64,000 nucleotides of DNA from Theodoxus fluviatilis (lineage: Eukaryota; Mollusca; Gastropoda; Cycloneritida; Neritidae), in contig JAWQFJ010001795.1 in assembly GCA_034096865.1 (NCBI GenBank), positions 143,816-207,815 on the forward strand, read 5' to 3'. This document shows, piece by piece, positions 15,420 through 49,074 of the stretch; within the stretch, counting starts at the first letter, position 1, and every line of letters begins with the position of its first letter. Position numbers and translations under genes: made by a program. The notes below the pieces were generated by a model that did no database searches, was not told where the DNA came from, and was given only the letters and a program-made list of their open reading frames with translations.

Positions 15420-17864
15420 TAGGTGGCGGCAGCCTCTATACAGTCATGCAGGGAAACCTGGTTTTTGCACTAATTTTCACACCATGTTTATATCAACAAC
15501 ATTTGCTTGGTTTGTCTTGACAATGTGCCCAATAAATACTTTGAAGTTCATTCTGCCTTGTCTTTGCCTTCGTTTGATGTGAATGAGAACATGTGAGCGA
15601 GAGGAGTAGGCAGAAATGCCTAATATTTTGGATCGACGAACCGCGACGCCATTAGGCCTGCAGCCATTTTGAGCTCAAGCAAAACAACACCTATCTGGGA
15701 AATCTCGCTGTTCTCTGTTCATGTCTATTTTTAACTTGAACAAAAGTGTGTCAGGTCAAACAAGACAAAGCTAGGCTTTGTTTACGTGTGATTTTAATTT
15801 TCCTAGGTAGTAGGGTTTATGAAAAAAATCCGAGATGAAAACACCTAAATATAGCTTGGTCACTTTCTCGGCTGAATTACGGGATTGGGGCATAATTGCG
15901 ACCCCACAATCATATATGCGATGGAAACAGCGTTTTCTGGAGGTTTCGGTCATGTTCGAAACTAAAGAATGCATGACGTCCACGCCGAGCGACAGTCAAT
16001 CAAAAGAGGCAACCCGTGCCTTTGACACGAAGCAGCCCTAGCTCAAAACATGGCGACCGAACACGCGCTTTCAACGTCGCCGTTAGCGACTCTGTTCGAG
16101 AAAGTCGAAACCATTCTTGATAAGTTTGTCGATAATCGTATTCATAAACATCTATTTTCGGTACTTGTAGAGTTTTAAGGTGCTAATTTCACGTAAGAAT
16201 GGCTAGATTTTAAGCTAAAAGTTGCGAGTGGATACGATCCATGCCGATCGGGCTCGAGTGTTATGGGTAGTGACAAAAACATGTTCTGTGTCTTTTTTCA
16301 GGCGATTTATTGTTCCAAGTCAAGATTTGAAACAAAAAAAAGAGTAGTTGTAGAAATGAGTGGTGTATTGTTTTTGTGATGATTTAACTTTGGTGGGGGT
16401 AAAATAGACAAAAGCGTTTGCTTTCTAAAACCGGAAGTAGATCGAGTCAGCGTCTGTCGTCTTCTTCTGTCGCTAGTTCAGTAGGCCTAGTTGTTCACAT
16501 GTTTCAAGATGTTGGCTTCAGTCGTTTTTCTTCTGAGTGGCATCTTCAGAGAATAAAATAGGATTTAACCACAAATTATTTCAGAAAGGATTTATTAATC
16601 AGGTATTTGTCCTAGTCATATGGTCACAAACTTTGGCTTTGCCTCACTACTTTGAGTGCACGAGGGTTCAGTGTTATTCATGTGACTACAATTACAATTA
16701 GCTGCTTGCTTCTGATGTGGTGGCACTGAGGGTTCAGTGTTATTCATGTGACTACAAAGCTGCTTGCTTCTGATGTGGTGGCACTGAGGGTTCAGTGTTA
16801 TTCATGTGACTACAAAGTTGCTTGCTTCTGATGTGGTGGCACTGAGGGTTCAGTGTTATTCATGTGACTACAAAGCTGCTTGCTTCTGATGTGGTGGCAC
16901 TGAGGGTTCAGTGTTATTCATGTGACTACAAAGTTGCTTGCTTCTGATGTGGTGGCACTGAGGGTTCAGTGTTATTCATGTGACTACAAAGCTGCTTGCT
17001 TCTGATGTGGTGGCACTGAGGGTTCAGTGTTATTCATGTGACTACAATTACAAAGCTGCTTGCTTCTGATGTGGTGGCACTGAGGGTTGAGTATTGTCCA
17101 TATGGACTGAACGACAATTTTTTTCTTGATTTTGTCTGAAATAGGGTGCTTTGATACTTGCTGTCAAGAAAAAGTGACCTGCACATTCCTGTTTGTTGGT
17201 TCTATCAGTTCCATACATTGCATTCTGCTTGTGTGCAAAATTTCAAGCATTTATCTCCAGTAGTTTTTGAGCTGTAGCTTGTTCAGTATACGAGTTCTTC
17301 GAAAACTTTCACTTTTCGTCTAATTTTTTTGTTATTTTTGGTGGTCATCAACTGATGTATTAATTTTTAAAGCAATTTGATTGTTTTCTTGGGCCCTTTA
17401 TATCATATTCTGTCTGTCTGCAAAAAATCAGTGAAATATCTTAAACGGTTCTTGAGTTATAGCTTCTTAAAGTGAAATATTCCAGAAAATGGCCTTGTTC
17501 CGCGAGGCAAATTGATGTTTTCCCCATTTTTAAGGCTCTTTTTAAAAAAAACCAGCCTGCCATGGTCCCTGAAAAAAATTAGAGCCAGACAATAACATAG
17601 AATGTATGAAATATTTCATTTATAAGGACAGCTGTGCTTTAGTTTTGATTCTAATGACCTTCAAAGTTGCTACTTTATGCTAATTTGACATTTATGTATT
17701 ACGAGCGTTTCGCCTTTCACGACCTTTGAAGTGGCATATCTCAGAAACTAATGAAGATATTCACTTACTTTTTTTTTCTTTTTTTCTAGTCTTTCTGCCA
17801 ACTTTATAACACAACACATTATAAACTTCCTCTTCCCCAACAAAAATTTGACTGCCGCCACCTA
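15420..17864 (+). mobile_element. Unclassified TIR transposon with 7-bp TSD, copy 1
   Basis: The left end is TAGGTGGCGGCAGCC; the right end, inverted, is TAGGTGGCGGCAGTC. Both flanks carry TTCAATG (15413-15419 and 17865-17871), a 7-bp target duplication. The 2445-bp body has an ATG-initiated 42-codon frame (16050-16178, starting MATEHALSTSPLATLFEKVE), then a 58-bp minisatellite, then a T-rich right arm. The last 110 bp resemble the right arm of the copy ending at 48949. No transposase is recognised. Superfamily is open: 7-bp duplications are reported for Dada and P-type elements, but I see no protein to decide. Confidence 0.8.
16663..17087. repeat. 58-bp minisatellite inside the TIR element
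   Basis: About seven copies of a 58-bp unit beginning GAGGGTTCAGTGTTATTCAT and ending TTCTGATGTGGTGGCACT. The first and last units carry an extra ATTACAA. It sits in the middle of the element at 15420-17864, in the place where its relative at 44703-48949 has a different 52-bp array. Confidence 0.95.
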
Positions 17865-18039
17865 TTCAATGGGAGTTCTGTCTGCAAAACAATGAACTAA
17901 TGTTGTTCTGATGGAGACCTATCAGATTTTGAACTGGAACATACATTTTGTGCTTGCCTTCTTTCTTTTTCCATATTTTTTGCACTATACCTCATTAAAA
18001 CATCATTTGTGAAAAACTAATAAATTTAGGTTTGCTTAA

Positions 18040-20522: not shown

Positions 20523-20524
<2 letters not shown>

Positions 20525-23380: not shown

Positions 23381-23458
23381 GTCCCCAGCTCTCCAGTCAT
23401 TCACTTTTCATGAATCACATAATGGATCTGTTCTAACTGCAGAGAGCTACACTTAGAG

Positions 23459-24665
23459 TAGGTAGTGGCAGCAAAAATTGAAACCTCAGTATAGAATAGA
23501 AAATTATGATTTATTATGATTCTACTATATGACAGAATTAAAGCCAAAAAAATGTAAGGCTCTATCATTAACAGTTCCGGAGATAATGAGGTTTCAAATT
23601 GATGGCGAAATTTGAGAGGATGTCCTTGTACTAAACTACCATTTTCAGCCTGGAAAAACTTAATGAATAAGACAGATTATGTAGTCTTTGTTAATTAAGA
23701 ATATACAACTGATTATATAGATTGTATTTCTTAAAAAGCTAGGCTGTGAATACAAAATCAGCAAATCTACATGTACTTCAAAAGATGGATGGATGGATGG
23801 ATGGATAGAGTTTTACAGCCTATCAGCCTTTGTAGGCTACGTAAGGCCATCAAGCACGAAAATCACTAGAACAGTAACGGTGTCCCTAGTTATTCGCCTT
23901 TTACAAATCGCGTAGGGATACGCAGTCAAACTTGAAAGAATTGTCTATTTTGACAGCATAAAATTACAAAATCACTTTGAAGATTCACTCTGAATCACTT
24001 CTTTATTACAGAATTTAACATAAACATCAAGCTCAATTTTTCTTAGTTCATCAAATGCAATATTTAGGAAAATACTGAGTTTCAAAAACAAACTTAGGCT
24101 AATTATGCCATGACGGACTAGGAAATGACCGTCATGTATATATAATGGCCATAACTTTTGAACCACTTGACGGATTTACTTCAAATTTGAGAGAAATACA
24201 GAAAACTACATAGGAAGCATGAAGAGATTAATCTTGGTTGAAAGCTTTTTTTCGTGATTTTTCGTTTCTAGGGGTTTATACATGGGAGATATTGATGGAT
24301 TTTGGTATCATTCAATTTATTACTTAACTTCGCATACATTGATATCAAATATAGCATTGTGTGATGTCTGTCCCAAATTCGCCAGGCGAGTAAACGGAGT
24401 ACCATAAAACTCACCCGTTGCCGCCTTGGCTGGAAAAGCGGGGTTTTCACGATCGCACTGCTTCACAGTATCACAATATTTTGGTGTGGCACTTTTAAAA
24501 TAAATGATAAACGTATATAATATTGAAAGAAAGAAAGAAAGTTCTTTATTTCTGCGTGTTACACATCTGTAGTACTTGTGTAAGCCAAACACAGCCCCGT
24601 GAAATCGTCAATTTTGGCTGATTTGCACGTTAGATTGCACTTTTGTGTAGCACTGCCACTACCTA
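23459..24665 (+). mobile_element. Unclassified TIR transposon with 7-bp TSD, copy 3
   Basis: The left end is TAGGTAGTGGCAGC; the right end inverted is TAGGTAGTGGCAGTGC. The flanks carry CTTAGAG on both sides (23452-23458 and 24666-24672), a 7-bp duplication. It is 1207 bp long and has no minisatellite, unlike copies 1 and 2. It shares with the copy at 44703-48949 a phrase around AACTTTTGAACCACT (24150 and 45156). No transposase frame is recognised. Confidence 0.82.
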
Positions 24666-24949
24666 CTTAGAGGTAAAAAGTATAGGTATAATATAAAGAC
24701 CATCACTCCAGGACTCAAAGAGTTTTGCACTTTACCCCCAATCATTGCCAAATCTTTACTGGCACATGACAAGAAACACAGTGAGAGAAAGGGCACGCAT
24801 AGTAAGGTACCAGCACTACCTCCACCTGGGCAGTATTCCAACCTAACGCTGGCTCAAAGCTGCATCAAGGATAAACTGCACTACAGCATGCCATCATTGT
24901 CCGACTCCCTATATAGGGATTATTTGCCCCATTACCCCCTTATACATAC

Positions 24950-25166
24950 TGCCTGAGGCTGCATCCAGCTCTGGGGTCTTGGGAGGCTTGGGCGGTGGGT
25001 GCTTGAAGGCTGTGATGTTCAGAGCATTGGAGGCTGCCATGTGCTGAGCTTTCTTGATGCTGGGGCCTGAGGCTTCATACTCTTCCTCCCCCAGCTTCAG
25101 CTTCACATAGAACGTCTTCTTGTGGGCTGGACCTTGTTCATCTATCAGCGTGTACTGGTGCAAGAT
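24950..25166 (-). CDS. stau: Staufen exon: C-terminal part of dsRBD1
   Basis: A 217-bp exon runs from a GGTCTTGCAG acceptor (25167-25168) to a CAGGCA|GTATGT donor. In phase 0 it reads ILHQYTLIDEQGPAHKKTFY, then VKLKLGEEEYEASGPSIKKA and QHMAASNAL. This completes the dsRBD begun by the exon ending at 49075. The ExGPAHxKTF and KKAQHxAA motifs are those of Staufen dsRBD1. A Pro-rich tail (KHPPPKPPKTPELDAASG) follows, as in fly Staufen. A 4.3-kb array of 19/20-bp repeats starts only 150 bp upstream of the acceptor. Confidence 0.96.
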
Positions 25167-25312
25167 CTGCAAGACCATCAAATATACTGGTACAACATCT
25201 GCAATGGAACTGAATTGGTTTACACTCGCAGTTACATGCAAGTTTACAAAAGAGACATATAAATACCACAACTCCCTGTGTGGTTGGCACACAGCTGAGT
25301 CTTTACTCATTT

Positions 25313-27996
25313 CAGGTTTTGACCAACATTTCAGACTTACACCAACATTTCAGATTTAAACCAACATTTCAGATTTAAACCAACATTTCAGACTTAAACC
25401 AACATTTCAGACTTAAACCAACATTTCAGACTTAAACCAACATTTCACACTTACACCAACATTTCAGACTTACACCAACATTTCAGACTTAAACCAACAT
25501 TTCAGAAATACATCAACAATTCAGACTTACACCAACATTTCAGACTTACATCCACATTTCAGACTTGCACCAACATTTCAGACTTACATCAACATTTCAG
25601 ACTTGCATCAACATTTCAGACTTGCATCTACATTTCAGACTTACATCAACATTTCAGACTTGCATCTACATTTCAGACTTGCACCAACATTTCAGACTTA
25701 CACCAACATTTCAGACTTGGCAACAACATTTCAGACTTAAACCAACATTTCAGACTTACACCAACATTTCAGACTTGCACCAACATTTCAGACTTGGCAA
25801 CAACATTTCAGACTTGGCAACAACATTTCAGACTTAAACCAACATTTCAGACTTACACCAACATTTCAGACTTGCACCAACATTTCAGACTTGGCAACAA
25901 CATTTCAGACTTGGCAACAACATTTCAGACTTACACCAACATTTCAGACTTGGCAACAACATTTCAGACTTAAACCAACATTTCAGACTTACACCAACAT
26001 TTCAGACTTACACCAACATTTCAGACTTGGCAACAACATTTCAGACTTAAACCAACATTTCAGACTTACACCAACATTTCAGACTTGCACCAACATTTCA
26101 GACTTGGCAACAACATTTCAGACTTACACCAACATTTCAGACTTACACCAACATTTCAGACTTGGCAACAACATTTCAGACTTACACCAACATTTCAGAC
26201 TTACACCAACATTTCAGACTTACATCCACATTTCAGATTCACACCAACATTTCAGACTTAAACCAACATTTCAGACATGCATCAACATTTCAGACTTGGC
26301 AACAACATTTCAGACTTACATCATCATTTCAGACATGCATCAACAGTTCAGACTTGCATCAACATTTCAGACTTGCATCAACATTTCAGACATTTCAGAC
26401 TTGCATCAACATTTCAGACTTGCATCAACATTTCAGACTTGCATCAACAATTCAGACTTGCATCAACATTTCAGACTTGCATCAACATTTCAGACTTGCA
26501 TCAACATTTCAGACTTGCATCAACATTTCAGACTCGCATCAACATTTCAGACTTGCATCAACATTTCAGACTTGCATCAACATTTCAGACTTGCATCAAC
26601 ATTTCAGACTCGCATCAACATTTCAGACTTGCAACAACATTTCAGACTTACACCAATATTTCAGACTTACACCAACAGTTCAGACTTGGCAACAACATTT
26701 CAGACTTGGCAACAACATTTCAGACTTAAACCAACATTTCAGACTTACACCAACATTTCAGACTTGCACCAACATTTCAGACTTACATCCACATTTCAGA
26801 CTTACATCAACATTTCAGACTTGGCAACAACATTTCAGACTTGGCAACAACATTTCAGACTTACACCAACATTTCAGACTTACACCCACATTTCAGACTT
26901 GCACCAACATTTCAGACTTACATCCACATTTCAGACTTACATCAACATTTCAGACTTGCATCAACATTTCAGACGTGCATCCACATTTCAGACTTACATC
27001 AACATTTCAGACTTGCATCAACATTTCAGACTTGCATCAACAATTCAGACTGGCATCAACATTTCAGACTTGGCAACAACATTTCAGACTTACACCAACA
27101 TTTCAGACTTACACCAACATTTCAGACTTGGCAACAACATTTCAGACTTAAACCAACATTTCAGACTTACACCAACATTTCAGACTTGCACCAACATTTC
27201 AGACTTGGCAACAACATTTCAGACTTGCACCAACATTTCAGACTTGCACCAACATTTCAGACTTACACCAACATTTCAGACTCGCATCAACATTTCAGAC
27301 TTACACCAACATTTCAGACTTGGCATCAACATTTCAGACTTACACCAACATTTCAGACTTGGCAACAACATTTCAGACTTGCACCAACATTTCAGACTTA
27401 CACCAACATTTCAGACTTGGCAACAACATTTCAGACTTGCACCAACATTTCAGACTTACACCAACATTTCAGACTTGGCAACAACATTTCAGACTTACAT
27501 CCACATTTCAGACTTGCATCAACATTTCAGACTTAAACCAACATTTCAGACTTGCACCAACATTTCAGACTTGGCAACAACATTTCAGACTTGCAACAAC
27601 ATTTCAGACTTGCACCAACATTTCAGACTTGCACCAACATTTCAGACTTGCAACAACATTTCAGACTTGGCAACAACATTTCAGACTTAAACCAACATTT
27701 CAGACTTGGCAACAACATTTCAGACTTACACCAACATTTCAGTCTTACACCAACATTTCAGACTTGGCAACAACATTTCAGACTTACACCAACATTTCAG
27801 ACTTACACCAACATTTCAGACTTACACCAACATTTCAGACTTACATCCACATTTCAAATTCACACCAACATTTCAGACTTAAACCAACATTTCAGACATG
27901 CATCAACATTTCAGACTTGGCAACAACATTTCAGACTTACATCATCATTTCAGACATGCATCAACAGTTCAGACTTGCATCAACATTTCAGACTTG
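25313..27996. repeat. 19/20-bp satellite array, left block
   Basis: About 140 units of ATTTCAGACTTACACCAAC (19 bp) mixed with ATTTCAGACTTGGCAACAAC (20 bp) and ATTTCAGACTTGCATCAAC. It is one array with the block at 34669-36329, split by the Gypsy insertion. The unit contains no plus-strand stop, so frames of up to 599 codons arise; these are artefacts. On the Staufen sense strand the ACACC variant reads GGTGTAAGTCTGAAAT, which contains a GTAAGT splice-donor-like hexamer. Confidence 0.96.
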
Positions 27997-28533
27997 TGTT
28001 ACGGTAAGGTGGTCTCTAACTTTCGGTCCGTCCCAGCTCGCGCCAGGAAAGTAGAATTAGGACTTCGTCTGAAGTTTTCTGGGAAGATCTTTATTCCATG
28101 TCTTGGCAACAAACGTACAGCGATGGCGAGTGCGCTTTCAAAGGCGCCAACAGCTCCACAAGCTCTCACTTGCTCACAACAACGACCTCATCCATTTCTG
28201 CTCCATGAACAAATCAGGACAGACTCTTACCTCTCTTCATAGGCCAGAGCCATCACGGTTCGACTTATCCCTACACCCATGATGCCACTACTTCTCCCAG
28301 CAATCACTCCCAGCGATAACACGCCGAAACGCCACGTCCTTCTCGCGCGCCATATTTTTCCTAACTGTCATTTTCGTCGCTGTCATACGTCACTTTTCAT
28401 TATTACGTCATCGTCACTAAAAATCGTCCGTCTCGGTCCAATCTGATCTGTACAAGGCGACAGGGAAAGTTCCCGAACTGCGGCATTTCCCATTACATTT
28501 GCATCCACAGGCATTTCACATTCTTCCGCAACA
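27997..28533 (-). repeat. Gypsy 3' LTR
   Basis: 537 bp. On the element's sense strand it begins TGTTGCGGAAG and ends CCGTAACA. It differs from the other LTR at two bases (28013 region T/G and 28250 region C/T). An AATAAA signal lies on the minus strand at 28090-28095. The purine tract AAAGAAGGGAGC directly precedes it on the minus strand. Confidence 0.95.
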
Positions 28534-28893
28534 CAGCTCCCTTCTTTCGAGACCAAGACGTCCTCGTCGGTCTTCCCACACCTCCAACTACAATACAACA
28601 ACAGGAATGAATGTGAAAAAAGTTACATGCCTGAAAGAAAAGAACAAGAAGTCCATTACTCATCTGGTCGTGCTCATCCTTGGTGGTTAACGTGGTGGAG
28701 AGAGAGGGACGAACTGGTGGCAGGACTGACAGAAGGATCTAGGTTTCCCTTTCTCCCTCCTGACCACAGAGCCATAGTCCCGCCACACCACAACACGTCC
28801 ACACATGCACCTGGGTCGCTCCCTCGTCGCTCTCACCTTCCGAGGGCGACCCAAGGCTCCCTCTCTCGCCAGTCACTCCTCATCGATGTCCGC

Positions 28894-29149
28894 CTACCAG
28901 TAGGGCGAAGGTCCTACCACTGTACGTTCCACACAAGTCGGCGGGAAATCCTCACAGGAAGCGGGTCGGCCGCACCACACGCCGCCCTCGTTTGGTGTAC
29001 GCCTGCACATCCTCCTGGGTCGTCTCATCGTCGCTCTCACCTTCCGAGGACAACCCAGGGCTCCCTCCTCCCTCCAGCTGCTCTTCATCGATGTCGGGGG
29101 GGTCAGGCTGTCGGCGCGGACATCCGCCACCAGTCGGGCGGAAGTTCAC
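28894..29149 (-). pseudogene. Possible displaced C-terminal tail of the Gypsy pol
   Basis: In the frame next to pol, overlapping its last codons, a short reading frame continues with an acidic stretch (EGESDDETTQED) and ends KRGRRVVRPTRFL. A basic RR..RP tail after an acidic linker is common at Gypsy pol C-termini. Either pol ends naturally at 29103, or a small indel just before 29103 has displaced this tail. I cannot tell which without related copies. Confidence 0.4.
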
Positions 29150-32100
29150 CCTGGTATTCCCACAGTCTGGCCCGGTTTACCACCCGTGGTCGGGCCCGAG
29201 AGTGCTGTTGAATGCGGTACACCCCCTCGTGAATCCGGCCCATAACCCTGTAAGGGCCCGTCCAGGGCCTAGCCAACTTGGTGGTGCGTCCTTTCTTCAC
29301 TCGCGGGTTGAAGTACCAGACAGCCGAGCCCTCAGCGAAGGTCTGGTCGTCTGCCTTGCGGTCGTACCAAGCCTTCATCCGGTCCGCGCTCTGATGCAGG
29401 TGGGTCCTTGCGGACTCCTGTACCGCCTGCAACGTATCCTGGAGCTGCATCACGTATTGAGGCATGTCGCGGGGGGTATCCCCCAGGGGCCTTGGCAGTA
29501 CCAAGTCAGCTGGGAGTTTGAGCTCTCGCCCAAGCATCAGCCGACTGGGGGAGATGCCCGTCGCTTCTTGCACTGCAGACCGGTAGGCCATCAGGGAGAA
29601 AGGTAAATAGTCCTCCCAATCCCTCTGGTGGTCGCTGACGCACTTCGATAGGCACCCCATGAGGGTTCTGTTATATCGCTCCACCATGCCGTCGGACTGG
29701 GGGTAGGCTGGCGTCGTGCGAGTCTTATGAATGCCCATCAGCCGACAGGTTTCCTGGAAGACAGCCGACTCGAAATTTCTCCCCTGGTCGGAGTGCAGCT
29801 CCCAGGGCATGCCGAATCGACAGAAGAAGCCTTCTACCAGAGCCCTGGCCACTGTCGTGGCCGTCTGATCGGGGAGAGGGTAGGCCTCGGGCCACTTGGT
29901 GAAGTAGTCCATCGCGACCAAGACAAACCGGTTCCCCGACTCAGTCTCGGGTAGGGGGCCCAGGATATCGACCGCCACCCTCTCCATGGGTGCCCCTGTC
30001 AGGTAGACTTGGGCAGGGCCGTGATGACGCCCGCGGGGTCCCGCACGTGAAGCACAAACATCGCAGCGGCGGCACCAGTCCTCAACCGAAGTGCGCCGTC
30101 CGACCCAGTAATACCTCTCGCAGACCCGCTGGTATGTCTTTCTGCGTCCGAAATGCCCGGCTGTCGGGCTGTCGTGCAGCTGCTTCAGGGCCTCTCCCTG
30201 CATTGCTTTTGGCAGGACCGGAAGCAGGGTGTGGTGGGCCCCCTTCTCGTTTACCCACCTCCGGTACAGCGCTCCGTCCCTCATCAGCAGGGTATCCCAC
30301 TGGGTCCAGTAGGCCTTAATGACGGGGCTCGTGGCAGTTATCTCCCTCCAAACGGGCCGTACGGGGCTGGTCTCCATCCAGTGGATGACAGTCTGCAGAT
30401 CAGGGTCTTGTCGCTGCGCGTCCGCTAACGCGGTCTCCTGTACGGCGATCTGTCGTACCGTCTCGCAGCATGGCTCCAAGGACGCCTGTTCCTCCCCGTG
30501 TCTGACCACTCGGAGGCAGGCTTTGCAGTCGCAGGGACGACGAGAGAGTCCATCGGCATTGCCGTGGTTTTTGCCGGGACGGTGCAGGATCTCGAAGTCG
30601 TACTCCTGAACCCTTTGGAGCCATCGTGCCCACTGACCCTCTGGATCTCGAAAGTGCATGAGCCATTGCAGGGATGAGTGGTCCGTCCTCAGAGTGAACC
30701 TCCGGCCATACAGGTATGGACGAAAGTGGGAGAAGGCCTTCACGACCGCTAACAGCTCCCGCCGTGTGACGCAGTATCGACGCTGCGGGCGGTCGAGGCG
30801 GGCGCTGTAGTATCCTATGGCTCTCTCCTCGCCATCTTGGACCTGTGACAGTACCGCTCCAATCCCCGTGTCACTGGCGTCCGTGTCGAGTATGAACGGC
30901 TCATCCTCCCTCGGGTAGGCAAGGACCGGCGATTCTGTGAGGCGCCGCTTTAGCGCTTGGAAGGCGTCCTCGCACTCGGCGCTCCATTGGAACTGGGCTT
31001 TCTTCCCCTTCAGTTGATGCAGCGGGGAGGCGACATCAGAGAAGCCCTGCACGAACCGGCGGTAGTAATTGCAGAAGCCCAGAAAACTATTGACTTCCGT
31101 TAGATTCCTTGGTCTTGGCCAGTCCTGCACGGTGCGCACTTTGGCTGAGTCAGTGTGGATGCCATTGGCTCCTACAACGTGGCCTAGAAAGACGACCTCT
31201 TTCTTGAATAGCCGACACTTCTGGGGGTGCAGCTTTAGACCGGCCTCTTCCAGTCGTTGAAACACCGCCTCTAGGAGGTGAAACTCCTGTTCAAGTGTCG
31301 GTGCATATATGATGACGTCATCCAGATAGACTAGGACGCCTTTCTGCAAGAGATCTTGGAGCACTGTCTCCATGAGACGCTCGAAGGTGGCCGGTGCGTT
31401 GCACAGTCCAAAAGGCATCACTGAAAATTGCCACAACCCTCCGTCCATGCAGAAAGCTGTTTTCTCTCGGTCCCCTTGTTCGACCTCTACCTGCCAGTAC
31501 CCACTCTTCAAATCAAGTGTGCTGAACCACCTAGCCCCCGAAAGGGCATCGAGGGTCAGGTCGATTCGCGGCAGGGGGTGCGAATCCTTCTTGGTGACGT
31601 CGTTCAGTCGGCGGTAGTCGACGCAGAACCTCGTGGAGCCGTCTTTCTTCTTCGCCAGCACTACCGGGGACGACCAAGGGCTGTTTGAGGGCTCAATGAC
31701 ACCCTGTTCTAGCATCCTCTGGACCTCCTGGCGCGCTATCTCCCGGCTGGCGAGAGGTATAGGCCTGGGGGCTTGCCTGATGGGGTTCGATGATCCCACG
31801 TCGATGGTATGACGTACGAGGCCAGTCCGACCCTCGTCGTGCTCCGCCAATGAGAAGGCTCCCCGGTGGGCGCGCAGTATTTCACCAAGTCGGGTCCGGT
31901 CCGAGGCGTCGAGTTCCTGGCTCCCCTCCTCCATGACAGTCTGCAGGGCTCCTGGGAAGGGCACGGTCAAGCCACCCTCCGTCAGTCCGGCCTGCAGCTT
32001 TCCTACCTTTAAAAGGCGCGGTGAGGACGCTCTCGCCCACTCAACACTCTCGAACCGTATCGGCAGCCCGTCAAGAGTCAGGAGAGCCCGTCCCCAGTCC

Positions 32101-34090: not shown

Positions 34091-34112
34091 GGTTTTCTAC
34101 TTTTTTTTGATT

Positions 34113-34130
34113 TCCCCGTCTCGGGAACCA
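34113..34130 (-). other. Gypsy primer-binding site
   Basis: One base after the 5' LTR, the element's sense strand reads TGGTTCCCGAGACGGGGA. The leading TGG complements a tRNA CCA end and the rest a tRNA acceptor/T-arm. I could not assign the tRNA with certainty. Confidence 0.8.
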
Positions 34131-34131
34131 A

Positions 34132-34668
34132 TGTTACGGTAAGGTGGTCTCTAACTTGCGGTCCGTCCCAGCTCGCGCCAGGAAAGTAGAATTAGGACTT
34201 CGTCTGAAGTTTTCTGGGAAGATCTTTATTCCATGTCTTGGCAACAAACGTACAGCGATGGCGAGTGCGCTTTCAAAGGCGCCAACAGCTCCACAAGCTC
34301 TCACTTGCTCACAACAACGACCTCATCCATTTCTGCTCCATGAACAAATCAGGACAGACTCTTACCTCTCTTCATAGGCCAGAGTCATCACGGTTCGACT
34401 TATCCCTACACCCATGATGCCACTACTTCTCCCAGCAATCACTCCCAGCGATAACACGCCGAAACGCCACGTCCTTCTCGCGCGCCATATTTTTCCTAAC
34501 TGTCATTTTCGTCGCTGTCATACGTCACTTTTCATTATTACGTCATCGTCACTAAAAATCGTCCGTCTCGGTCCAATCTGATCTGTACAAGGCGACAGGG
34601 AAAGTTCCCGAACTGCGGCATTTCCCATTACATTTGCATCCACAGGCATTTCACATTCTTCCGCAACA
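34132..34668 (-). repeat. Gypsy 5' LTR
   Basis: 537 bp, two differences from the 3' LTR. It contains the element's promoter and an AATAAA on the minus strand at 34225-34230. It lies directly against satellite repeats, with CTTG (34669-34672) as the target duplication. Confidence 0.95.
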
Positions 34669-36329
34669 CTTGCATCAACATTTCAGACTTGCATCAACAT
34701 TTCAGACTCGCATCAACATTTCAGACTTGCATCAACATTTCAGACTTGAATCAACATTTCAGACTCGCATCAACATTTCAGACTCACATCAACATTTCAG
34801 ACTTGCATCAACATTTCAGACTTGCATCAACATTTCAGACTTGCATCAACATTTCAGACTCGCATCAACATTTCAGACTCGCATCAACATTTCAGACTTA
34901 CACCAACATTTCAGACTTACACCAACAGTTCAGACTTGGCAACAACATTTCAGACTTGGCATCAACATTTCAGACTTGGCATTAACATTTCAGACTTACA
35001 CCAACATTTCAGACTTACACCAACATTTCAGACTTGGCAACAACATTTCAGACTTGGCAACAACATTTCAGACTTGGCAACAACATTTCAGACTTACACC
35101 AACATTTTAGACATGCATCAACATTTCAGACATGCATCAACATTTCAGACTTGGCAACAACATTTCAGACTTACATCATCATTTCAGACATGCATCAACA
35201 GTTCAGACTTGCATCAACATTTCAGACTTGCATCAACATTTCAGACTTAAACCAACATTTCAGACATGCATCAACATTTCAGACTTGGCAACAACATTTC
35301 AGACTTACATCATCATTTCAGACATGCATCAACAGTTCAGACTTGCATCAACATTTCAGACTTGCATCAACATTTCAGACTCGCATCAACATTTCAGACT
35401 TGCATCAACATTTCAGACTTGCATCAACATTTCAGACTTGCAACAACATTTCAGACTTACATCATCATTTCAGACTTACACCAACATTTCAGACTTGGCA
35501 TCAACATTTCAGACTTACATCCACATTTCAGACTTGCATCAACATTTCAGACTTGGCATCAACATTTCAGACTTGGCATCCACATTTCAGACTTACATCA
35601 TCATTTCAGACATGCATCAACATTTCAGACTTGGCAACAACATTTCAGACTTACATCATCATTTCAGACATGCATCAACAGTTCAGACTTGCATCAACAT
35701 TTCAGACTTGCATCAACATTTCAGACTCGCATCAACATTTCAGACTTGCATCAACATTTCAGACTTGCATCAACATTTCAGACTTGCATCAACAATTCAG
35801 ACTTGCATCAACATTTCAGACTTGCATCAACATTTCAGACTTGCAACATTTCAGACTTGGCATCAACATTTCAGACTTACATCCACATTTCAGACTTGCA
35901 TCAACATTTCAGACTTGGCATCAACATTTCAGACTTGCATCAACATTTCAGACTTGGCAACAACATTTCAGACTTGCACCAACATTTCAGACTTACACCA
36001 ACATTTCAGACTTACACCAACATTTCAGACTCGCATCAACATTTCAGACTTGGCATCAACATTTCAGACTCGCATCAACATTTCAGACTCGCATCAACAA
36101 TTCAGACTTGCATCCACATTTCAGACTTGCATCAACATTTCAGACTTGGCATCAACATTTCAGACTCGCATCAACAATTCAGACTTGCATCCACATTTCA
36201 GACTTGCATCAACATTTCAGACTTGCATCAACATTTCAGACTTGGCATCAACATTTCAGACTTACACCAACATTTCAGACTTGCATCAACATTTCAGACT
36301 TGGCATCAACATTTCAGACTTACATCATC
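34669..36329. repeat. 19/20-bp satellite array, right block
   Basis: It continues the array at 25313-27996 after the Gypsy insertion, with about 85 units. TTGCATCAAC-type units dominate here, whereas TACACCAAC and GGCAACAAC are more frequent at the far left. Occasional 11-bp-short units (35846 region) mark unequal exchange. Confidence 0.95.
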
Positions 36330-38093: not shown

Positions 38094-38097
38094 TTAA

Positions 38098-40614: not shown

Positions 40615-43600
40615 CCCTTATCCTGGTTAGCGCGGCATTTGCCGCGCTCGCCTTTGTGGTCCGCCACTGGTAAGCGCGGCATATGTCGTTTCTGACACCA
40701 CGTGCATTCTGGCTCTCTCCAAGTACAAGCCTATCATATAACTCTACATTTACTGATGCTAGTTCATGCAGAAGAGGTTTCTCTACAGTCTACAGCTTGG
40801 CCAATCAACAATCAGGGTGATTTTATGTGCGTTATAGTAGAAATTATGGGCTACATCCTGTAGAATCGAAGTGGACGCTCGAGGCAACATGTCGCAATCG
40901 CGAAATCTGTTTGAAGATTTTAATCCTCCAGTTTCCGAAGATGAAGATGAAGAGGAAACTTTACATGAAGTAATCAGGCAAGCTGTAATTAGCTCAAGAA
41001 TGCCGATCTCTCAAGCTGCGAGTGATCAAGATGTAGGAGAAGATGATAGTGAAGGGTGGATGCGAACAGCTGATGAGCCGCTAATTGCGCCGTTCACGGG
41101 TGAGTCGAAACTCCTCGCGGAGATTGACTCTGACGCTGAGCCAATTGACTTTTTGAACCTATTCCTGGATGATACAGTTTTTGAATTGCTTGTGGAGCAA
41201 ACAAACCTGTATGCTGAGAGGAAACTGGAAAGCACCGAGCCGTCTCCTCATTCGCGATTGTTACGCTGGTCGCCTGTCAACTGTGACGAAATGAAAACAT
41301 TCCTTGCTCTCGTGATCCTCACGGGCATCGTCGTGAAATCGTCCATCCCAGCATATTGGAGCACAGATGAGGTTGATGCTACTCCGTTTTTTGGTCAGAC
41401 AATGTCGCTCACACGTTTCGAAGGAATACTGAGCAACCTGCACTTGGCAGACAACGCACTCGATGACAAGACTGATCCATTGTTCAAAATACGGCCATTT
41501 GTCACTCACCTCCGAATGCGGTTCATGGATGTGTACTCGCCCCGCCAAGATCTGCGTTTTGACGAGGGGATGTGCCCCTGGAAGGGACACTTGAGGTTTC
41601 GAGTGTACAACCCTGCCAAGCCTACCAAGTTCGGCGTGAAGCTCTACAAAGTCTGTGAGGCAGACTCGGGCTACGTTGTTGGCTTTGAAGTTTATCAGGG
41701 CTCTTCACCTTGCACCACCTTCGCCGAGGCAGTGGGGGTTGGAGAGGACAGGACGCAGACCACCAAGATCGTAACGGGATTGCTTGCTTTCTGTGGCCTG
41801 CTGTCCAAGGGACATCATGTCTACATGGACAACTACTACAGCAGTCCTGAATTGTTTGAGGAGCTGGACACTCTCAACATATATGCATGTGGAACTGTTC
41901 GTGTAGGCAGAAAAGGCATGCCAGAGGCTCTTCAGAAGAAGGCAATCAAGCTGCACCAAGGACAGACTGTTTTCAGACAGAAAGGAAACCTCCTTGCCCT
42001 GAAGCATCATGACAAACGAGATGTGAACATGCAGACTACAATTCACTGTGCAGATGAGGTCATACTGGATAAGCATGATGCCCAAGGCCAGCTTGTTGTG
42101 AAGCCCACCTGCATTGTTGACTACATTCAGAAGATGGGGGGGGTTGATCTGGCAGATCAAATGAACAAAAACTACACTGTCCTGAGGAAAACAGTCAAAT
42201 GGTGGAAGAAACTTTTCCTGCATCTCCTGACGCTCGCAATGTGCAATGCCTACATCCTGCACAGAAAATATGCAACTGCTTCCATGTCACACATTGACTT
42301 CAGGAAAGAGCTTGTCCGTAGTCTCATCAGACAAGCCACCAGGGCCCCTCGACCTGCACCCAAAGGCAAGAGAATGGCAAACCCTCCCAGCCGCATGCAA
42401 GCCTCACACACACACCTGTGTACATTCCTGCAAAGGAAGGTGCGAAGCGGGAGAGGCCCCTGCGTGATTGTGTTGCTTGCAATGCAAAGAAGTCTCATCG
42501 CACAGGGTTCAAAAGGAAGCAGACTTCCTACATGTGTGACATCTGCCAAGTTCCTCTCTGTGTGCCAAACTGTTTTGAGATTTATCACAAGAATGCCCAC
42601 TACAAACGTGCTCTGCGACCTGATGAGCCATCCACCTCAGCTGATCACCGACTCACCTGTAGATAACTCTTCCAGATAGCAGATCTATGTGGACATGTGT
42701 ACTTTCAAGTTTCATGCAACTGGATAACTGTGTTGTACTTTATATTTCATTGCAACTGGATTACTGCATGTACTCTCAAGTTTCATGCAATTGGATTACT
42801 GGGTGTACTTCCAAGTTTCCTGCAACTGGATTACTGGATTACTGGTTTGGATGAGACTGCTTGCCGCAATCAGGCACACTGGTATGTGTGAATGTGCCTC
42901 CTACCTTAACCAGTGTTTTTGTTTGTTTTTTTACATGAAAGGGTATTCATAGCAATTTTCTTGATGCTCTTGTAGTATTGCTGGTTTGAGGTAAGTTTTT
43001 GAAAATGTTTGTGTAGTGTGTAATGCCTTCTTGTGTCTCATAATGACAAAAATCTGTAGAATTTTTCAGTTTTATTACAGACAAATGATCAAATAATGAA
43101 TGTAGGAGACAAACTTTACTGCAGACTGTTTTCATGTTGAATTATCCACATATTGATGCTATTCAGTTTCTACATTTGCAATAATTTGAGGAATACTGCA
43201 TAAGATGGAAGAGAGTGTAGGTAATCAGAATTACTTCATTTGCCTCTCTGATACCTGGCTCATCGAATTTGCATTATAATTTAAAGAGTGCATTTTTGGT
43301 CAAAGGAAATGATACATTAGTATGCACAGATGACAAAGCAACATCCAGTAGGGTTTATAGGGTATTTAGCCACTATTGCATAGTGATTTACCTGTTTTAT
43401 TTCTCGAGGAGTGAAAAACACACACAAATATTTACAATTTAAAATTTGACCCAAAAATCAGGTTCTGAATAAAGACTATAAACTGTACACCAACATATTG
43501 TTCATTTTATTTCAAGCATTTTGTGTTTTTACTTTATGTGTCTATCTGTAACGGTTCATCAGCAATCTCAAAGTTAATGAAAGGTGTGCATGTTGCTCAA

Positions 43601-43663
43601 ATTGCTCGTGTTTTAGCACCACTGGCAGCCCATAACGTGATCGTTTTAGCACCGCTCTAAGGG
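40615..43663 (+). mobile_element. Near-complete piggyBac transposon
   Basis: 3049 bp between TTAA 40611-40614 and TTAA 43664-43667. The ends are CCCTTATCCTGG and, inverted, CCCTTAGAGCGG. A strong palindrome AGCGCGGCATTTGCCGCGCT stands 15 bp inside the left end and is partly repeated at 40672. The transposase reads rightwards. A short ~45-bp tandem repeat (42698-42860) lies between the gene and the right end. The right end also appears at about 44608 only because of the duplicated segment around the N gap. Confidence 0.93.
40889..42666 (+). pseudogene. piggyBac transposase, frameshifted before its zinc finger
   Basis: It cuts and pastes the element at TTAA. The first ATG is at 40889 (MSQSRNLFEDF). 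An acidic N-terminus is followed by the DDD domain: D in RFDEGMCPWKG (about residue 225), D in VYMDNYYSS (314) and D in GGVDLADQMN (420/423). The single frame runs on to 42679, but after about 42412 it loses family resemblance. The Cys-rich C-terminal finger (RDCVACNAKK...YMCDICQVPLC) is in another frame, ending at 42666. The switch lies at a CA repeat (42406-42416), and one extra CA unit would explain it. The catalytic core is intact; target and end binding by the finger is lost. Confidence 0.85.
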
Positions 43664-43990
43664 TTAAGAACGTATTTGATAGTTCATAACTCTGGTTCTA
43701 GTTGTGATAGAGACAAAAAAAATGTTTTGGGTGTGCTTGTATTACTTGCTACTTTAGTAGGTAGCAGCGCAGCCTCGCAAAATGGGTGGGAAAGCTGCCT
43801 CAGGTCATCCTTTACTTAGCTTTAATCGGCTAAAATGAATCTCTTAAATGTCAAGAACAAGAATAAAACACATTGAAACAGAAAGATAAACAAGCCTTCT
43901 GTCTGTTAGCATCCTTGTTATTGTCAGATCTGTTTGATTTGAGCAATTCTGAGTCATTTGAAAGTTGTCACTTTTCAAGCCGTGTTGCCC
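43056..43990. repeat. 935-bp segment, first copy (probable assembly duplicate)
   Basis: It is repeated after the N gap at 44001-44935 with the same length and no difference that I could see. It includes the right end of the piggyBac and the left end of the TIR element. It ends in mid-sequence at the gap, so it is best read as an overlap that was not collapsed. Confidence 0.93.
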
Positions 43991-44000
43991 NNNNNNNNNN
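43991..44000. other. 10-N assembly gap
   Basis: Ten Ns of nominal size. The sequence right of the gap restarts at the equivalent of 43056, so no real sequence need be missing. Confidence 0.99.
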
Positions 44001-44935
44001 GTAGAATTTTTCAGTTTTATTACAGACAAATGATCAAATAATGAATGTAGGAGACAAACTTTACTGCAGACTGTTTTCATGTTGAATTATCCACATATTG
44101 ATGCTATTCAGTTTCTACATTTGCAATAATTTGAGGAATACTGCATAAGATGGAAGAGAGTGTAGGTAATCAGAATTACTTCATTTGCCTCTCTGATACC
44201 TGGCTCATCGAATTTGCATTATAATTTAAAGAGTGCATTTTTGGTCAAAGGAAATGATACATTAGTATGCACAGATGACAAAGCAACATCCAGTAGGGTT
44301 TATAGGGTATTTAGCCACTATTGCATAGTGATTTACCTGTTTTATTTCTCGAGGAGTGAAAAACACACACAAATATTTACAATTTAAAATTTGACCCAAA
44401 AATCAGGTTCTGAATAAAGACTATAAACTGTACACCAACATATTGTTCATTTTATTTCAAGCATTTTGTGTTTTTACTTTATGTGTCTATCTGTAACGGT
44501 TCATCAGCAATCTCAAAGTTAATGAAAGGTGTGCATGTTGCTCAAATTGCTCGTGTTTTAGCACCACTGGCAGCCCATAACGTGATCGTTTTAGCACCGC
44601 TCTAAGGGTTAAGAACGTATTTGATAGTTCATAACTCTGGTTCTAGTTGTGATAGAGACAAAAAAAATGTTTTGGGTGTGCTTGTATTACTTGCTACTTT
44701 AGTAGGTAGCAGCGCAGCCTCGCAAAATGGGTGGGAAAGCTGCCTCAGGTCATCCTTTACTTAGCTTTAATCGGCTAAAATGAATCTCTTAAATGTCAAG
44801 AACAAGAATAAAACACATTGAAACAGAAAGATAAACAAGCCTTCTGTCTGTTAGCATCCTTGTTATTGTCAGATCTGTTTGATTTGAGCAATTCTGAGTC
44901 ATTTGAAAGTTGTCACTTTTCAAGCCGTGTTGCCC
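44001..44935. repeat. 935-bp segment, second copy
   Basis: Duplicate of 43056-43990. This copy continues without a break into the body of the TIR element, so it is the better one to keep. Confidence 0.93.
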
Positions 44936-45323
44936 AGCGTCGGCATCCATTTTGCTTTAGTCAACTTGGCCGAAATCACCACTCGACTTCGGAGAAGTAA
45001 ACACGCACTATTTCATCTTTGTCAACGGAGTTGATATACATTAGCGGAATATAGTCCGTAGTTTACACTGGTATATGTATTTTTTTCATGCGTTATTTAG
45101 TTTTTTTTAATTAAATAGTTTCTTTTATAGTGGTCATCTTTAAACCCGTGTAACTTTTGAACCACTGCACCGATTGACCACATAAAGGATGCGCCTGAAA
45201 GTTCATTCTTCTGTGATTCCAACCGTATAACACATACTATCGTTGTAGTCATGCGCGAAGAGCACAGCCAATGAGAACAGAGCTTTGTAAGACACTTCGG
45301 CAGACCCGCTTCGACCGGCTATC

Positions 45324-45402
45324 ATGGCGAACGCAGTGCTTTCTGTCGCTAGCGGCGAAGAGGAATCTACATCTTTTGTGATGAAAATCAGAGCCATATT
45401 GG
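45324..45402 (+). pseudogene. Exon-like ATG frame in the TIR element
   Basis: ATG in ATCATGGCG context begins MANAVLSVASGEEESTSFVM and then KIRAILG, ending at a GTAAGT donor (45403). In the copy at 15.4 kb an ATG frame in the same relative position begins MATEHALSTSP. The parallel suggests the first exon of the family's own gene, but the remaining exons are missing. The family is not recognised. Confidence 0.35.
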
Positions 45403-45926
45403 GTAAGTAATCATATTTATACGTAGAAAAGATCCTTAGGTAATCACTTTTGGCAGTATTTTTTGCTGAATTCATTTGTAACTGTGAAAATATATCGCTT
45501 GTTTCAGACCCACGTGTTGATCACATTAGCGGACGATTTCGTTTCAATGCTCTGTCCACTTGCGCGCCGATTTAATTTTTTTCTTTAGGAATCAGTTGCT
45601 GCTGCTATGCTAATATCAAGTTTGAGTCATTTCTGAATCATTCTATGACTGATATTAACGTGTTTTCTCATGGATTGCGACGGACGTTCATGGATAAATA
45701 TAGGTGCCTAGCCGCACCTCGCTTGCAATGACATCGTTGTTGATCAACATTTCACGAGTTGTGAAATGGGGTGGTCAATAAACGACCAAAGTTAATTTTT
45801 ACCTTTCGCCGTACATGTGATATGTTTATTTCAAACTAATCTTCAATCACTACTTCGATAGTTTTTAATTCTCTGCAGTCTGCTGTTGTTTTCTTAAGGA
45901 TTAATGCCCCTTTGCTGAAACTGGAA

Positions 45927-47954
45927 GTGCGACTGCAAGGCTAGGCCTGGTGTACCCAACACCATCCACTCATTCAATGTGCGACTGCAAGGCTAGGCCT
46001 CGTGTACCCAACACCATCCACTCATTCAATGTGCGACTGCAAGGCTAGGCCTCGTGTACCCAACACCATCCATTCATTCAATGTGCGACTGCAAGGCTAG
46101 GCCTCGTGTACCCAACACCATCCACTCATTCAATGTGCGACTGCAAGGCTAGGCCTCGTGTACCCAACACCATCCACTCATTCAATGTGCAACTGCAAGG
46201 CTAGGCCTCGTGTACCCAACACCATCCATTCATTCAATGTGCGACTGCAAGGCTAGGCCTCGTGTACCCAACACCATCCACTCATTCAATGTGCGACTGC
46301 AAGGCTAGGCCTCGTGTACCCAACACCATCCACTCATTCAATGTGCGACTGCAAGGCTAGGCCTCGTGTACCCAACACCATCCACTCATTCAATGTGCGA
46401 CTGCAAGGCTAGGCCTCGTGTACCCAACACCATCCTATCATTCAATGTGCGACTGCAAGGCTAGGCCTCGTGTACCCAACACCATCCACTCATTCAATGT
46501 GCGACTGCAAGGCTAGGCCTCGTGTACCCAACACCATCCACTCATTCAATGTGCGACTGCAAGGCTAGGCCTCGTGTACCCAACACCATCCACTCATTCA
46601 ATGTGCGACTGCAAGGCTAGGCCTCGTGTACCCAACACCATCCACTCATTCAATGTGCGACTGCAAGGCTAGGCCTCGTGTACCCAACACCATCCACTCA
46701 TTCAATGTGCGACTGCAAGGCTAGGCCTCGTGTACCCAACACCATCCACTCATTCAATGTGCGACTGCAAGGCTAGGCCTCGTGTACCCAACACCATCCA
46801 CTCATTCAATGTGCGACTGCAAGGCTAGGCCTCGTGTACCCAACACCATCCATTCATTCAATGTGCGACTGCAAGGCTAGGCCTCGTGTACCCAACACCA
46901 TCCATTCATTCAATGTGCGACTGCAAGGCTAGGCCTCGTGTACCGAACACCATCCACTCATTCAATGTGCGACTGCAAGGCTAGGCCTCGTGTACCCAAC
47001 ACCATCCATTCATTCAATGTGCGACTGCAAGGCTAGGCCTCGTGTACCCAACACCATCCACTCATTCAATGTGCGACTGCAAGGCTAGGCCTCGTGTACC
47101 CAACACCATCCATTCATTCAATGTGCGACTGCAAGGCTAGGCCTCGTGTACCGAACACCATCCACTCATTCAATGTGCGACTGCAAGGCTAGGCCTCGTG
47201 TACCGAACACCATCCACTCATTCAATGTGCGACTGCAAGGCTAGGCCTCGTGTACCCAACACCATCCATTCATTCAATGTGCGACTGCAAGGCTAGGCCT
47301 CGTGTACCCAACACCATCCACTCATTCAATGTGCGACTGCAAGGCTAGGCCTCGTGTACCCAACACCATCCATTCATTCAATGTGCGACTGCAAGGCTAG
47401 GCCTCGTGTACCCAACACCATCCACTCATTCAATGTGCGACTGCAAGGCTAGGCCTCGTGTACCCAACACCATCCACTCATTCAATGTGCGACTGCAAGG
47501 CTAGGCCTCGTGTACCCAACACCATCCACTCATTCAATGTGCAACTGCAAGGCTAGGCCTGGTGTACCCAACACCATCCATTCATTCAATGTGCAACTGC
47601 AAGGCTAGGCCTCGTGTACCGAACACCATCCATTCATTCAATGTGCGACTGCAAGGCTAGGCCTCGTGTACCCAACACCATCCACTCATTCAATGTGCGA
47701 CTGCAAGGCTAGGCCTCGTGTACCCAACACCATCCACTCATTCAATGTGCGACTGCAAGGCTAGGCCTCGTGTACCCAACACCATCCACTCATTCAATGT
47801 GCAACTGCAAGGCTAGGCCTCGTGTACCCAACACCATCCACTCATTCAATGTGCGACTGCAAGGCTAGGCCTCGTGTACCCAACACCATCCACTCATTCA
47901 ATGTGCGACTGCAAGGCTAGGCCTCGTGTACCCAACACCATCCACTCATTCAAT
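45927..47954. repeat. 52-bp minisatellite, 39 units
   Basis: 2028 bp, exactly 39 x 52, of a unit starting GTGCGACTGCAAGGCTAGGC and ending CCACTCATTCAAT. Units differ by single substitutions (CACTC/CATTC, GCGAC/GCAAC, ACCC/ACCG) and one carries CCTATC. The uniformity points to recent amplification. Confidence 0.97.
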
Positions 47955-49074
47955 GATTCATCCTTGTTTTATTCTCAGTTTATCCAAGTTTTATGGTCCA
48001 TCATACTAATTTGAGTCAAATAAAAGACTGACTGAAAGTACTGTGAAAGTAAAAGTAAACAGCCCTATGTCGTTTCAGTCATAAATCAGTAAATAATTGA
48101 TAATTGATATGAGCATATTTTGTTTGTTACAGATGATGCCCACTTCCAGCAAATGAAGTCTGCTTTCACAGCTACTGGATTGACAATTTTGTTTGAGTCT
48201 TTGAATGACTTTGAAGTAGGGATATGAATTTGACAATCGCAACTTGTCCCACTGTGCACTCTGCAAGAATTTTGTTTAGTACATAGAACTGTGAACAGTA
48301 TTCGTAAATATCTTCCTTGATGTAACACATATGTGTGAAGATAACAGTATAACTAATCTACACACCAAAAATCATAGCTGTATTTCCAATAGTTTCTGAA
48401 ATATTTCAATCTGAAATGTGGTTCCTCCTCAATTTGTGCCGTTTTCGCTGGAGATCATGGAGAATTTGTACATACTTGTGTGTGATTTTTTCAAACATTG
48501 CACTAAATTTCACTGTCCACAAAGCTTACATTGTAATCTGTCTACACACCAAAATTGGTGGTTGTATCTTCAATAGTTTCTGAATTATTGGCATTAAAGT
48601 GACAAAAAAAATGTTCTTTTTCAGTTGTTCCGCTTAACAAATTAGTGTTTTTGTCATTTTTTAGGCTCTTTTTCTCCCAAAATATGAAACTAGACTGGCT
48701 GAAAAAAAATAGACTTGCTCTACACAAACCTGTTAGGCATTTCTGAAAGTTCCAGACTGCTCCTGTACATATTGTATGAAATGTGATGACCGGAGTCGCA
48801 AAAGCATGTATACTAAAATATCAATATCTCATGAACTAATAAAGATATCCACTTACTTTTTTGTGTTTTGCTTGTATTGTATTCTTCTTTAAAAATATCA
48901 CAAAACATACACTCTCACTTAAAATTAAAATTTTGACTGCTGCTACCTAACTTTAGTAATTTTTGTGTTTCATTACATTTCAAATCACTTCAAATTTTGA
49001 CCTGCTGGTACCTACATAGGGACACACATTTACCTCGTCATGTTGGTAGGACACATAGGGATACATCCACTCAC

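Follow-up and report, generated by a model that had tools for sequence, protein, structure and literature searches.

Cut-and-paste DNA transposons with 7-bp target duplications in Theodoxus fluviatilis: a transposase of predicted Hermes/hAT-type fold and copies carrying minisatellites

A 64,000-nt stretch of the Theodoxus fluviatilis genome (contig JAWQFJ010001795.1; hereafter the window) contains three elements, E1, E2 and E3, which are very probably non-autonomous copies of a group of cut-and-paste DNA transposons. A DDE transposase of about 1,060 to 1,230 residues, with a predicted Hermes/hAT-type core, would mobilise them through their TAGGTRGYRGCAG ends with a 7-bp stagger. E1 and E3 would have arisen by internal deletion, and the minisatellites that they carry would be ordinary tandem amplifications.

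Ends, target duplications and insertion sites

All three elements are bounded by a 13-bp terminal inverted repeat (TIR), TAGGTRGYRGCAG, with TAGG..CCTA at the termini, and have exact 7-bp duplications. E1 (2,445 bp; 15420..17864, plus strand) has exact 13-bp TIRs and lies between two copies of TTCAATG (15413..15419 and 17865..17871). E2 (1,207 bp; 23459..24665, plus strand) has TIRs flanked by CTTAGAG (23452..23458 and 24666..24672). E3 (4,247 bp, including 2,029 bp of minisatellite; 44703..48949, plus strand) has TIRs flanked by ACTTTAG (44696..44702 and 48950..48956), as well as sibling copies elsewhere in the genome. The coordinates, shared ends and duplications given in the initial annotation are thus exact, with the detail that the left end of E3 reads TAGGTAGCAGCGCAG and has a 2-bp insertion relative to the 13-mer. 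Five exact matches to TAGGTRGYRGCAG lie in the window, at the two ends of each of E1 and E2 and at the right end of E3; when up to two mismatches are allowed, 15 matches are found against 5.6 expected. An additional E3 left end at 43758 was rejected: an exact 935-bp repeat flanks a 10-N gap (43991-44000), and the segment (43056..44935) is an assembly artefact duplicating the E3 left end on paper.

E1 and E3 have related right arms, as had been proposed, with 70% identity over the terminal 130 columns and 62% over 197 columns further in. Clear similarity of E2 to E1 or E3 was not found outside the ends; E2 belongs to a second family, which shares these ends and whose copies include L010, L019 and part of L022. 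Neither E2 nor L010 or L019 gave a transposase match by tblastn, and no transposase-bearing relative of this second family was present among the genomic loci fetched.

In the host genome, TAGGTRGYRGCAG has 598 exact matches, compared to 177 for the reversed control. The 7-bp duplications were checked at all nearest inward-facing pairs within 13 kb among 100 matches listed of the 598, a sample of 18 pairs that is therefore biased to young, intact copies. Sixteen of these pairs are flanked by exact duplications. The two pairs without one are L009 and L023, the flanks of the latter being inverted copies; an alternative outer pair at L022 has no duplication either, and that of L059 has one mismatch. 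Four of the 16 positive pairs (L018, L019, L020 and L026/27) lie inside simple or tandem repeats, where a duplication is less telling. Two empty sites were located. Altogether, the idea of a transposon family that has TIRs and duplicates 7 bp on insertion is borne out by the window elements, the other genomic pairs and the empty sites.

Insertion sites are CTTANAG-like. Of the 24 known exact duplications, 22 entered a base-preference test (all but L047 and L068); in these, T at position 2 and A at position 6 occur 26 times, against 12.6 expected. In 3 of the 18 pairs (L019, L020 and L026/27) an array adjoins the element on one flank or both, close to the 21% array share of the window, and we therefore claim no preference for landing in minisatellites. 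All copy counts are lower bounds, the genome searches scoring the best 38-150 candidates only.

Transposase-bearing copies and the predicted protein

A search for copies with long reading frames, which the initial annotation had advised, yielded a 1,231-aa open frame between TAGGTRGYRGCAG end pairs, in two copies that are 99.93% identical and inserted at different sites. This frame is counted stop to stop, and its first ~20 residues are probably intron. Transposase-bearing copies in the same genome measure 5.7-12.6 kb, the transposase itself roughly 1,060-1,230 aa; a third long frame, L048, has no end pair in its locus. L056, which represents the 7,991-bp copy type (C2257, L056), has an in-frame stop within one transposase segment, so this copy may be dead. 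The Mutator-like frames of L016 (Pfam PF20700) were set aside as transposase candidates because about the first 240 bp of this locus are common to the L022 type, several end-bounded copies encode the L022 type of protein, and profile comparison gave nothing.

Residues D, D and E and a CxxH motif are conserved across the transposase family; D71, D144 and E442 are the candidate catalytic residues, E442 being the likely third. The predicted structure shows an RNase H core with an all-helical insertion of the Hermes/hAT type, preceded by a long helical (coiled-coil) stretch and followed by an extra beta domain. The protein encoded between the element ends thus appears to be an acidic-triad RNase H transposase, presumably endowed with catalytic activity. 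TIRs with a duplication of fixed length, together with this predicted fold and triad between them, are features that define cut-and-paste (DDE) elements. We read a GRGRRPKLP stretch as AT-hook-like; the label "Tudor-like" for the beta domain derives from one source's name for P0050 and from the predicted strands.

Pfam and NCBIfam scans covered 35 relatives picked for length and diversity. At E 0.1, none of the 35 matches the Pfam hAT dimerisation domain (PF05699) or a BED finger, and no THAP domain was found in them; PF05699 itself has at least 150 matches in this genome. NCBIfam gave coiled-coil and stray matches, and for the C-terminal beta domain taken by itself there was no Pfam match. 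PDB sequence searches returned apparent coiled-coil or chance matches only (8 of 8, the 60 listed of 136, and 8 of 8), and no viral structure in the library scored below E 0.001. Homologs were collected in three rounds, which retrieved 14, 112 and 135 proteins; of the last set 120 were listed, and no listed protein is annotated as hAT; candidates in this search need shared exact words, and a distant hAT could therefore hardly enter it. No P, Dada, Kolobok or Transib entry stands among the best 50 structural matches listed, although such a listing excludes nothing. The family can be called undescribed with respect to Pfam, NCBIfam and PDB sequences (Repbase and Dfam lying outside the scope), and no paper describing it was found in the open literature searched (most subscription papers and Repbase Reports lying outside it). 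The earlier view that no protein supports a superfamily no longer stands, for the predicted protein points to a hAT-like fold rather than to P or Dada.

Placement among DNA transposon superfamilies

The placement of the family is evenly poised. It may represent a superfamily of animal DNA transposons in its own right, as yet unnamed and sister to hAT, characterized by a Hermes-type core, an N-terminal coiled coil and AT-hook-like motif, a C-terminal Tudor-like domain, 7-bp CTTANAG-type duplications and TAGGTRGYRGCAG ends. Its range would include at least molluscs, annelids, nemerteans and echinoderms, with recent activity in T. fluviatilis. We give somewhat less than even weight to its being a highly divergent clade within the hAT superfamily, like hAT5, hAT6 and the fungal hAT7. 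The duplications of hAT elements follow the pattern nTnnnnAn, which the excess of T at position 2 and A at position 6 resembles: in both cases a medium-length duplication has T near its start and A near its end. Short TIRs, a predicted RNase H core with helical insertion, the DDE residues and CxxH are likewise in common with Hermes/hAT (PDB 6dwz, 6dww, 2bw3). When the proteins were compared with hAT frames of this genome that look complete, local similarity was confined to the second D and CxxH and was not significant. The duplications are 7 bp in the copies tested rather than the 8 bp typical of hAT, but PMC12730594 reports hAT families with 5-, 6- and 7-bp duplications, hAT5, hAT6 and hAT7 being the exceptions within hAT. 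One of these, hAT7 of rust fungi, combines 7-bp duplications with a hAT-type transposase; according to the same paper, however, it was assigned by sequence similarity and clusters with fungal and plant hAT, whereas the present proteins have no hAT sequence match.

It is at this level that inclusion in hAT meets its difficulties. Similarity to Hermes/hAT is undetectable in sequence, the hAT dimerisation and BED domains were matched in none of the 35 members scanned, in a genome rich in such hAT-domain matches, and the three homolog-search rounds returned, among the proteins listed, only the transposase family itself. Repbase, as described in PMC4455052, decides hAT membership by convergence of iterated sequence search, which a distant hAT could hardly have shown in the three rounds made here, given the exact words required. 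The predicted coiled-coil stretch before the core and beta domain after it also set the family apart from Hermes/hAT. The link to hAT is thus one of predicted structure, with sequence profiles falling short of it.

Membership in the P superfamily is very improbable. Galileo, a P element, also has 7-bp duplications, tandem repeats within its copies and many copies devoid of the transposase segment, but it is described in PMC4168063 as having a THAP domain, D(2)H, very long TIRs and the target consensus GTANTAC; here no THAP domain was found in the 35 members scanned, CxxH replaces DxxH and the duplication consensus differs. We hold it just as implausible that these are Dada or Kyakuja elements, whose duplications are reported to be 6-7 bp and 7 bp, respectively. 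Dada resembles the present family further in its large DDE transposase with introns; PMC3706591 describes it as having zinc fingers (CCCC, CCHC), small RNA gene targets and, in the families treated, no TIRs. Dada-U6, Dada-U1 and two Kyakuja families are reported without TIRs, against the 13-bp TIRs found here, and Kyakuja (KDZ) has CA..TG ends rather than TAGG..CCTA. P membership was rejected on the THAP domain and the D(2)H motif, Dada membership on the TIRs; Kyakuja is disfavoured.

Internal deletions and minisatellites

By alignment, E1 is an internal-deletion derivative of the 7,991-bp transposase-bearing copy type: it matches L056 at 98.8% (1-1244) and 96.1% (1243-2445), with 5,561 bp absent between. 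It retains a remnant of transposase exon 1 (MATEHALSTSPLATLFEKVE...; 16050..16118, plus strand), matched by residues 1-26 of P0003 (tblastn, 65% identity, E 0.008) and also present in L056. In E3, an exon 1 remnant (MANAVLSVASGEEESTSFVMKIRAIL; 45324..45402, plus strand), read from the sequence and compared by eye with MASSMVNSVASSEDEINSEIGK in L012, is followed by a GTAAGT donor. The start of exon 2 (DDAHFQQMKSAFTATG...; 48133..48227, plus strand) lies 3' of a TTACAG acceptor, keeps the phase of exon 1 and continues up to a stop. Its identity rests on position and splice phase, the sequence match being weak (P0004 residues 1-21 align by tblastn to 48117-48179 with 52% identity at E 0.042, unrelated hits in the window being at 0.19 and 0.25). 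Both E1 and E3 thus retain remnants of the gene's first exons, and the ATG frame seen at the same relative place in the two elements is real but must be reinterpreted as the first exon of the transposase gene.

The transposase encoded by the 5.7-12.6 kb copies would recognise the 13-bp ends, excise the element and integrate it at CTTANAG-like sites, cutting the target with a 7-bp stagger; its Hermes/hAT-type core with helical insertion would be too distant in sequence from hAT for any profile used. In P and hAT elements, gap repair is a route by which internal segments are lost. The deletions in E1 and E3 would most likely stem from such repair being interrupted after excision. Loss of internal segments is touched on in PMC4168063.

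The arrays have the sizes first reported, 58 bp x 7.3 in E1 (16658..17092, plus strand) and 52 bp x 39.0 in E3 (45927..47955, plus strand, intron 1). Both had been described as private. This holds for the 52-bp array: each of the 11 sibling loci examined (L058-L068) has one unit match between the same arms, and the other 37 genome-search rows that match the unit only all fall within the E3 copy. The E3 array therefore grew in place, from one unit to 39, in this copy. The 58-bp array, on the other hand, is common to about 17 loci, the transposase-bearing parent type included; it has 13.9 units in L056, where it lies 3' of the stop codon of the transposase frame, and 5.3-6.3 units in seven other copies measured. 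An array match is absent at six E1-type loci. Judging from these comparisons, E1's array is older and was inherited from the parent type, so birth of the array within the copy itself holds for E3 but not for E1.

The further suggestion that element structure actively promotes tandem amplification is improbable. Two unrelated arrays in two lineages do speak for it, and overlapping adjacent rows, read without alignment, hint at three or more additional internal tandem duplications at eight E3-type loci (C2158, C15820 twice, C17820; C1404, C2039, C3011; C304). However, 16 arrays (period at least 15, at least 3 copies, length at least 100 bp) fill 20.9% of the window, so that 1.7 would be expected by length in E1, E2 and E3 and the two found are no excess. 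The two arrays differ in unit and place, one in the first intron and the other 3' of the stop codon, and the single units of the E3 siblings and the six E1-type loci without an array match argue in the same direction. Ordinary tandem amplification in non-coding parts of the elements, probably by slippage, would suffice: the 52-bp amplification would have occurred in the E3 copy only, while the 58-bp array would have been copied with the element, gaining and losing units.

Oyster Helentrons and Tetris are reportedly examples of minisatellite-carrying transposons. More generally, tandem repeats arise in or spread via transposons, as stated in a review (PMC9659126); what differs here is that the single-unit state of E3 and the transposase-bearing parent type of E1 are found in the same genome. 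Together, these copies allow the birth of a minisatellite, and its copying by transposition, to be followed from the state before to the state after. On present evidence, more than 100 predicted proteins are transposases of one family or fragments of them, almost all of these having no name or the label "uncharacterized" or "hypothetical". A name for this family would make mollusc annotation cleaner, and its apparently intact copies are candidates for a new gene-transfer tool.

Ends, target duplications and surroundings

The genome assembly (965 Mb in 19,668 contigs, the window being C1783:143816-207815) was searched for the 13-mer terminal inverted repeat. The ends, positions and flanking 7-bp duplications described in the initial annotation agree for all three elements, E1 (15420-17864), E2 (23459-24665) and E3 (44703-48949), with the 13-mer at the left end of E3 interrupted by a 2-bp insertion. 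What looks like a fourth end, at 43758, was rejected as an assembly artefact: it lies within an exact 935-bp repeat that flanks a 10-N gap on both sides. This repeat (43056-44935) is an unmerged contig overlap, so that its sequence is doubled in the assembly.

Genome-wide there are 598 occurrences of the 13-mer; its reversed sequence, used as control, has 177. When every nearest inward-facing pair within 13 kb was collected among 100 places listed of the 598, an exact 7-bp duplication adjoined the ends in 16 of 18 pairs (L026/27 among them); 4 of these 16 sit in tandem or simple repeats, where such a match is less telling. The pairs at L009 and L023 have no exact 7-bp duplication beside their ends. 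At L022 the duplication is that of the inner pair, an outer alternative pair having none. Outside the 18 pairs, exact duplications were found at L043, L045, L056, L047 and L068, and one with a single mismatch at L059; at L058 any duplication is obscured by Ns. Two empty sites were recovered: when the flanks of L024 are joined, keeping a single duplication, the resulting sequence aligns to L012 over 580 bp (97.6%), and the flanks of L025 likewise align to two places of L016 over about 410 bp (90-95%). Base preference in 22 duplications reads C-T-Y-A-N-A-G. The combined count of T at position 2 and A at position 6 is 26, compared to 12.6 in random 7-mers from the window (reached in 0 of 5,000 samples).

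The 168-bp end pair of L023 (301-468) has outer flanks that are inverted copies of each other, a structure that resembles an insertion less than it does a fold-back of a single E2-type end. In L016, the region 1322-3482 has two frames with matches to Pfam PF20700 (Mutator-like transposase), enclosed by a TAGGTAGCGGCAG pair with duplication ATAATAG; they probably belong to another transposon, inserted in a family member.

In the window, minus-strand frames at 4622-5119 and 24909-25310 resemble double-stranded-RNA-binding domains of what we take, from the frames alone, to be a Staufen-type gene; if this reading holds, the elements would lie in introns of this putative gene. Within 25322-36327, a presumably Gypsy-like element, named from its frames (29103-32594 and 32483-34090, minus strand), is surrounded by a 19-bp minisatellite, with units going on at both sides (25322-27996, 34668-36327). 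The 602-aa frame at 40871-42679 is, by its resemblance, presumably a piggyBac transposase.

Transposase and internally deleted copies

Copies with long frames were found within the end pairs of L022 (1,231 aa, stop to stop), L024 and L026/27. Three frames of 1,227-1,231 aa in the genome are 98-100% identical; for the third (C10221), no end pair was seen within its locus, L048. The complete elements of C977 and C3060 have different duplications and share 99.93% identity over 5,737 bp, hence the family moved recently.

The copy L056 (contig C2257) is 7,991 bp long, is flanked by the duplication CATTAAT and contains a transposase gene close to the Littorina protein P0003 (65% over the 26-aa exon 1, 79-97% over five more segments). 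An in-frame stop interrupts one transposase segment, so that L056 may be inactive. E1 matches L056 at 98.8% (E1 1-1244) and 96.1% (1243-2445); between these two stretches, which overlap by 2 bp where they join, 5,561 bp are missing. The ATG frame previously noted in E1 is transposase exon 1, which L056 has as well. The ATG frame of E3 is also exon 1. It is followed by a GTAAGT donor and then by a TTACAG acceptor, after which exon 2 begins in phase, the exon-2 match being weak (E 0.042). The right arm of E3 is 88% identical to those of L012 and L022. L012 is L022 minus a similar internal stretch, with a 10-bp overlap at the deletion. In P and hAT elements, short overlaps at internal deletions go with interrupted gap repair after excision, a process that would fit the deletions of E1 and L012. 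The ends of E2 are the same, but it is a member of a separate, related family of non-autonomous elements; among the loci fetched, no copy of that family bears a transposase.

Minisatellites within the elements

The 58-bp array, previously thought private to E1, is carried in family context by about 17 matched loci. It has 5.3 to 7.3 units in eight measured copies other than L056, the parent type of E1, in which 13.9 units lie downstream of the transposase frame. Thus, the array travels with the element and alters mostly by whole units. At six loci the flank after the array was matched and the array itself had no match. Diverged arrays of the unit (78-88%) without E1 flanks, on C18327, C2831, C19209, C12273 and C16130, are either older family copies or free satellite.

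The 52-bp array of E3 behaves differently. In the sibling loci L058-L068 (40 of 118 candidates scored), one unit match of 36-58 bp lies between the same two arms in 11 of 11, and all 37 other unit-only rows of the genome search fall within E3. One 52-bp stretch therefore became 39 units in the E3 copy, a clean case of minisatellite growth within one copy.

Minisatellites inside transposons are a known phenomenon (PMC9659126). The initial annotation went further, suggesting that element structure promotes amplification. Some proneness would agree with eight E3-type loci at which overlapping adjacent rows, read unaligned, hint that further stretches of intron 1 have been duplicated in tandem; however, with arrays defined by a period of at least 15 bp, at least 3 copies and at least 100 bp (16 in the window, together 13.4 kb or 21%), the elements hold 2 against 1.7 expected by length, no sign of excess over the rest of the window. 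At the E3-type loci on C2158, C15820, C17820, C1404, C2039, C3011 and C304, neighbouring rows share about 190-400 bp of the query, and their breakpoints differ.

Relatives of the transposase

Three rounds of homolog search gathered 14, 112 and 135 proteins. Among the 120 listed of these 135, none is named a transposase and most are unnamed, "uncharacterized" or "hypothetical"; P0030 is labelled aubergine-like, P0050 Tudor domain-containing, and P0107, P0109 and P0111 have unrelated Pfam domains. None of 35 members scanned matched any Pfam transposase family (E 0.1). D71, D144, CxxH 175-178 and E442 (numbering of relative P0002) are each kept in at least 90% of 68 aligned sequences. Littorina saxatilis supplies the nearest named relatives, one segment reaching 97%. 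Listed named relatives include proteins from the gastropods Littorina, Nucella, Elysia, Plakobranchus, Gigantopelta and Patella and the bivalve Sinanodonta; non-mollusc hosts among those listed are the nemertean Lineus, the annelid Lamellibrachia, the crinoid Anneissia and the starfish Acanthaster.

Altogether, the observations of the initial annotation stand, and their interpretation is partly supported. The elements appear to represent an unannotated, recently active transposon group with 7-bp duplications, which would be hAT-like. Judging from the hosts of the listed relatives, this group extends across several lophotrochozoan groups and to echinoderms.
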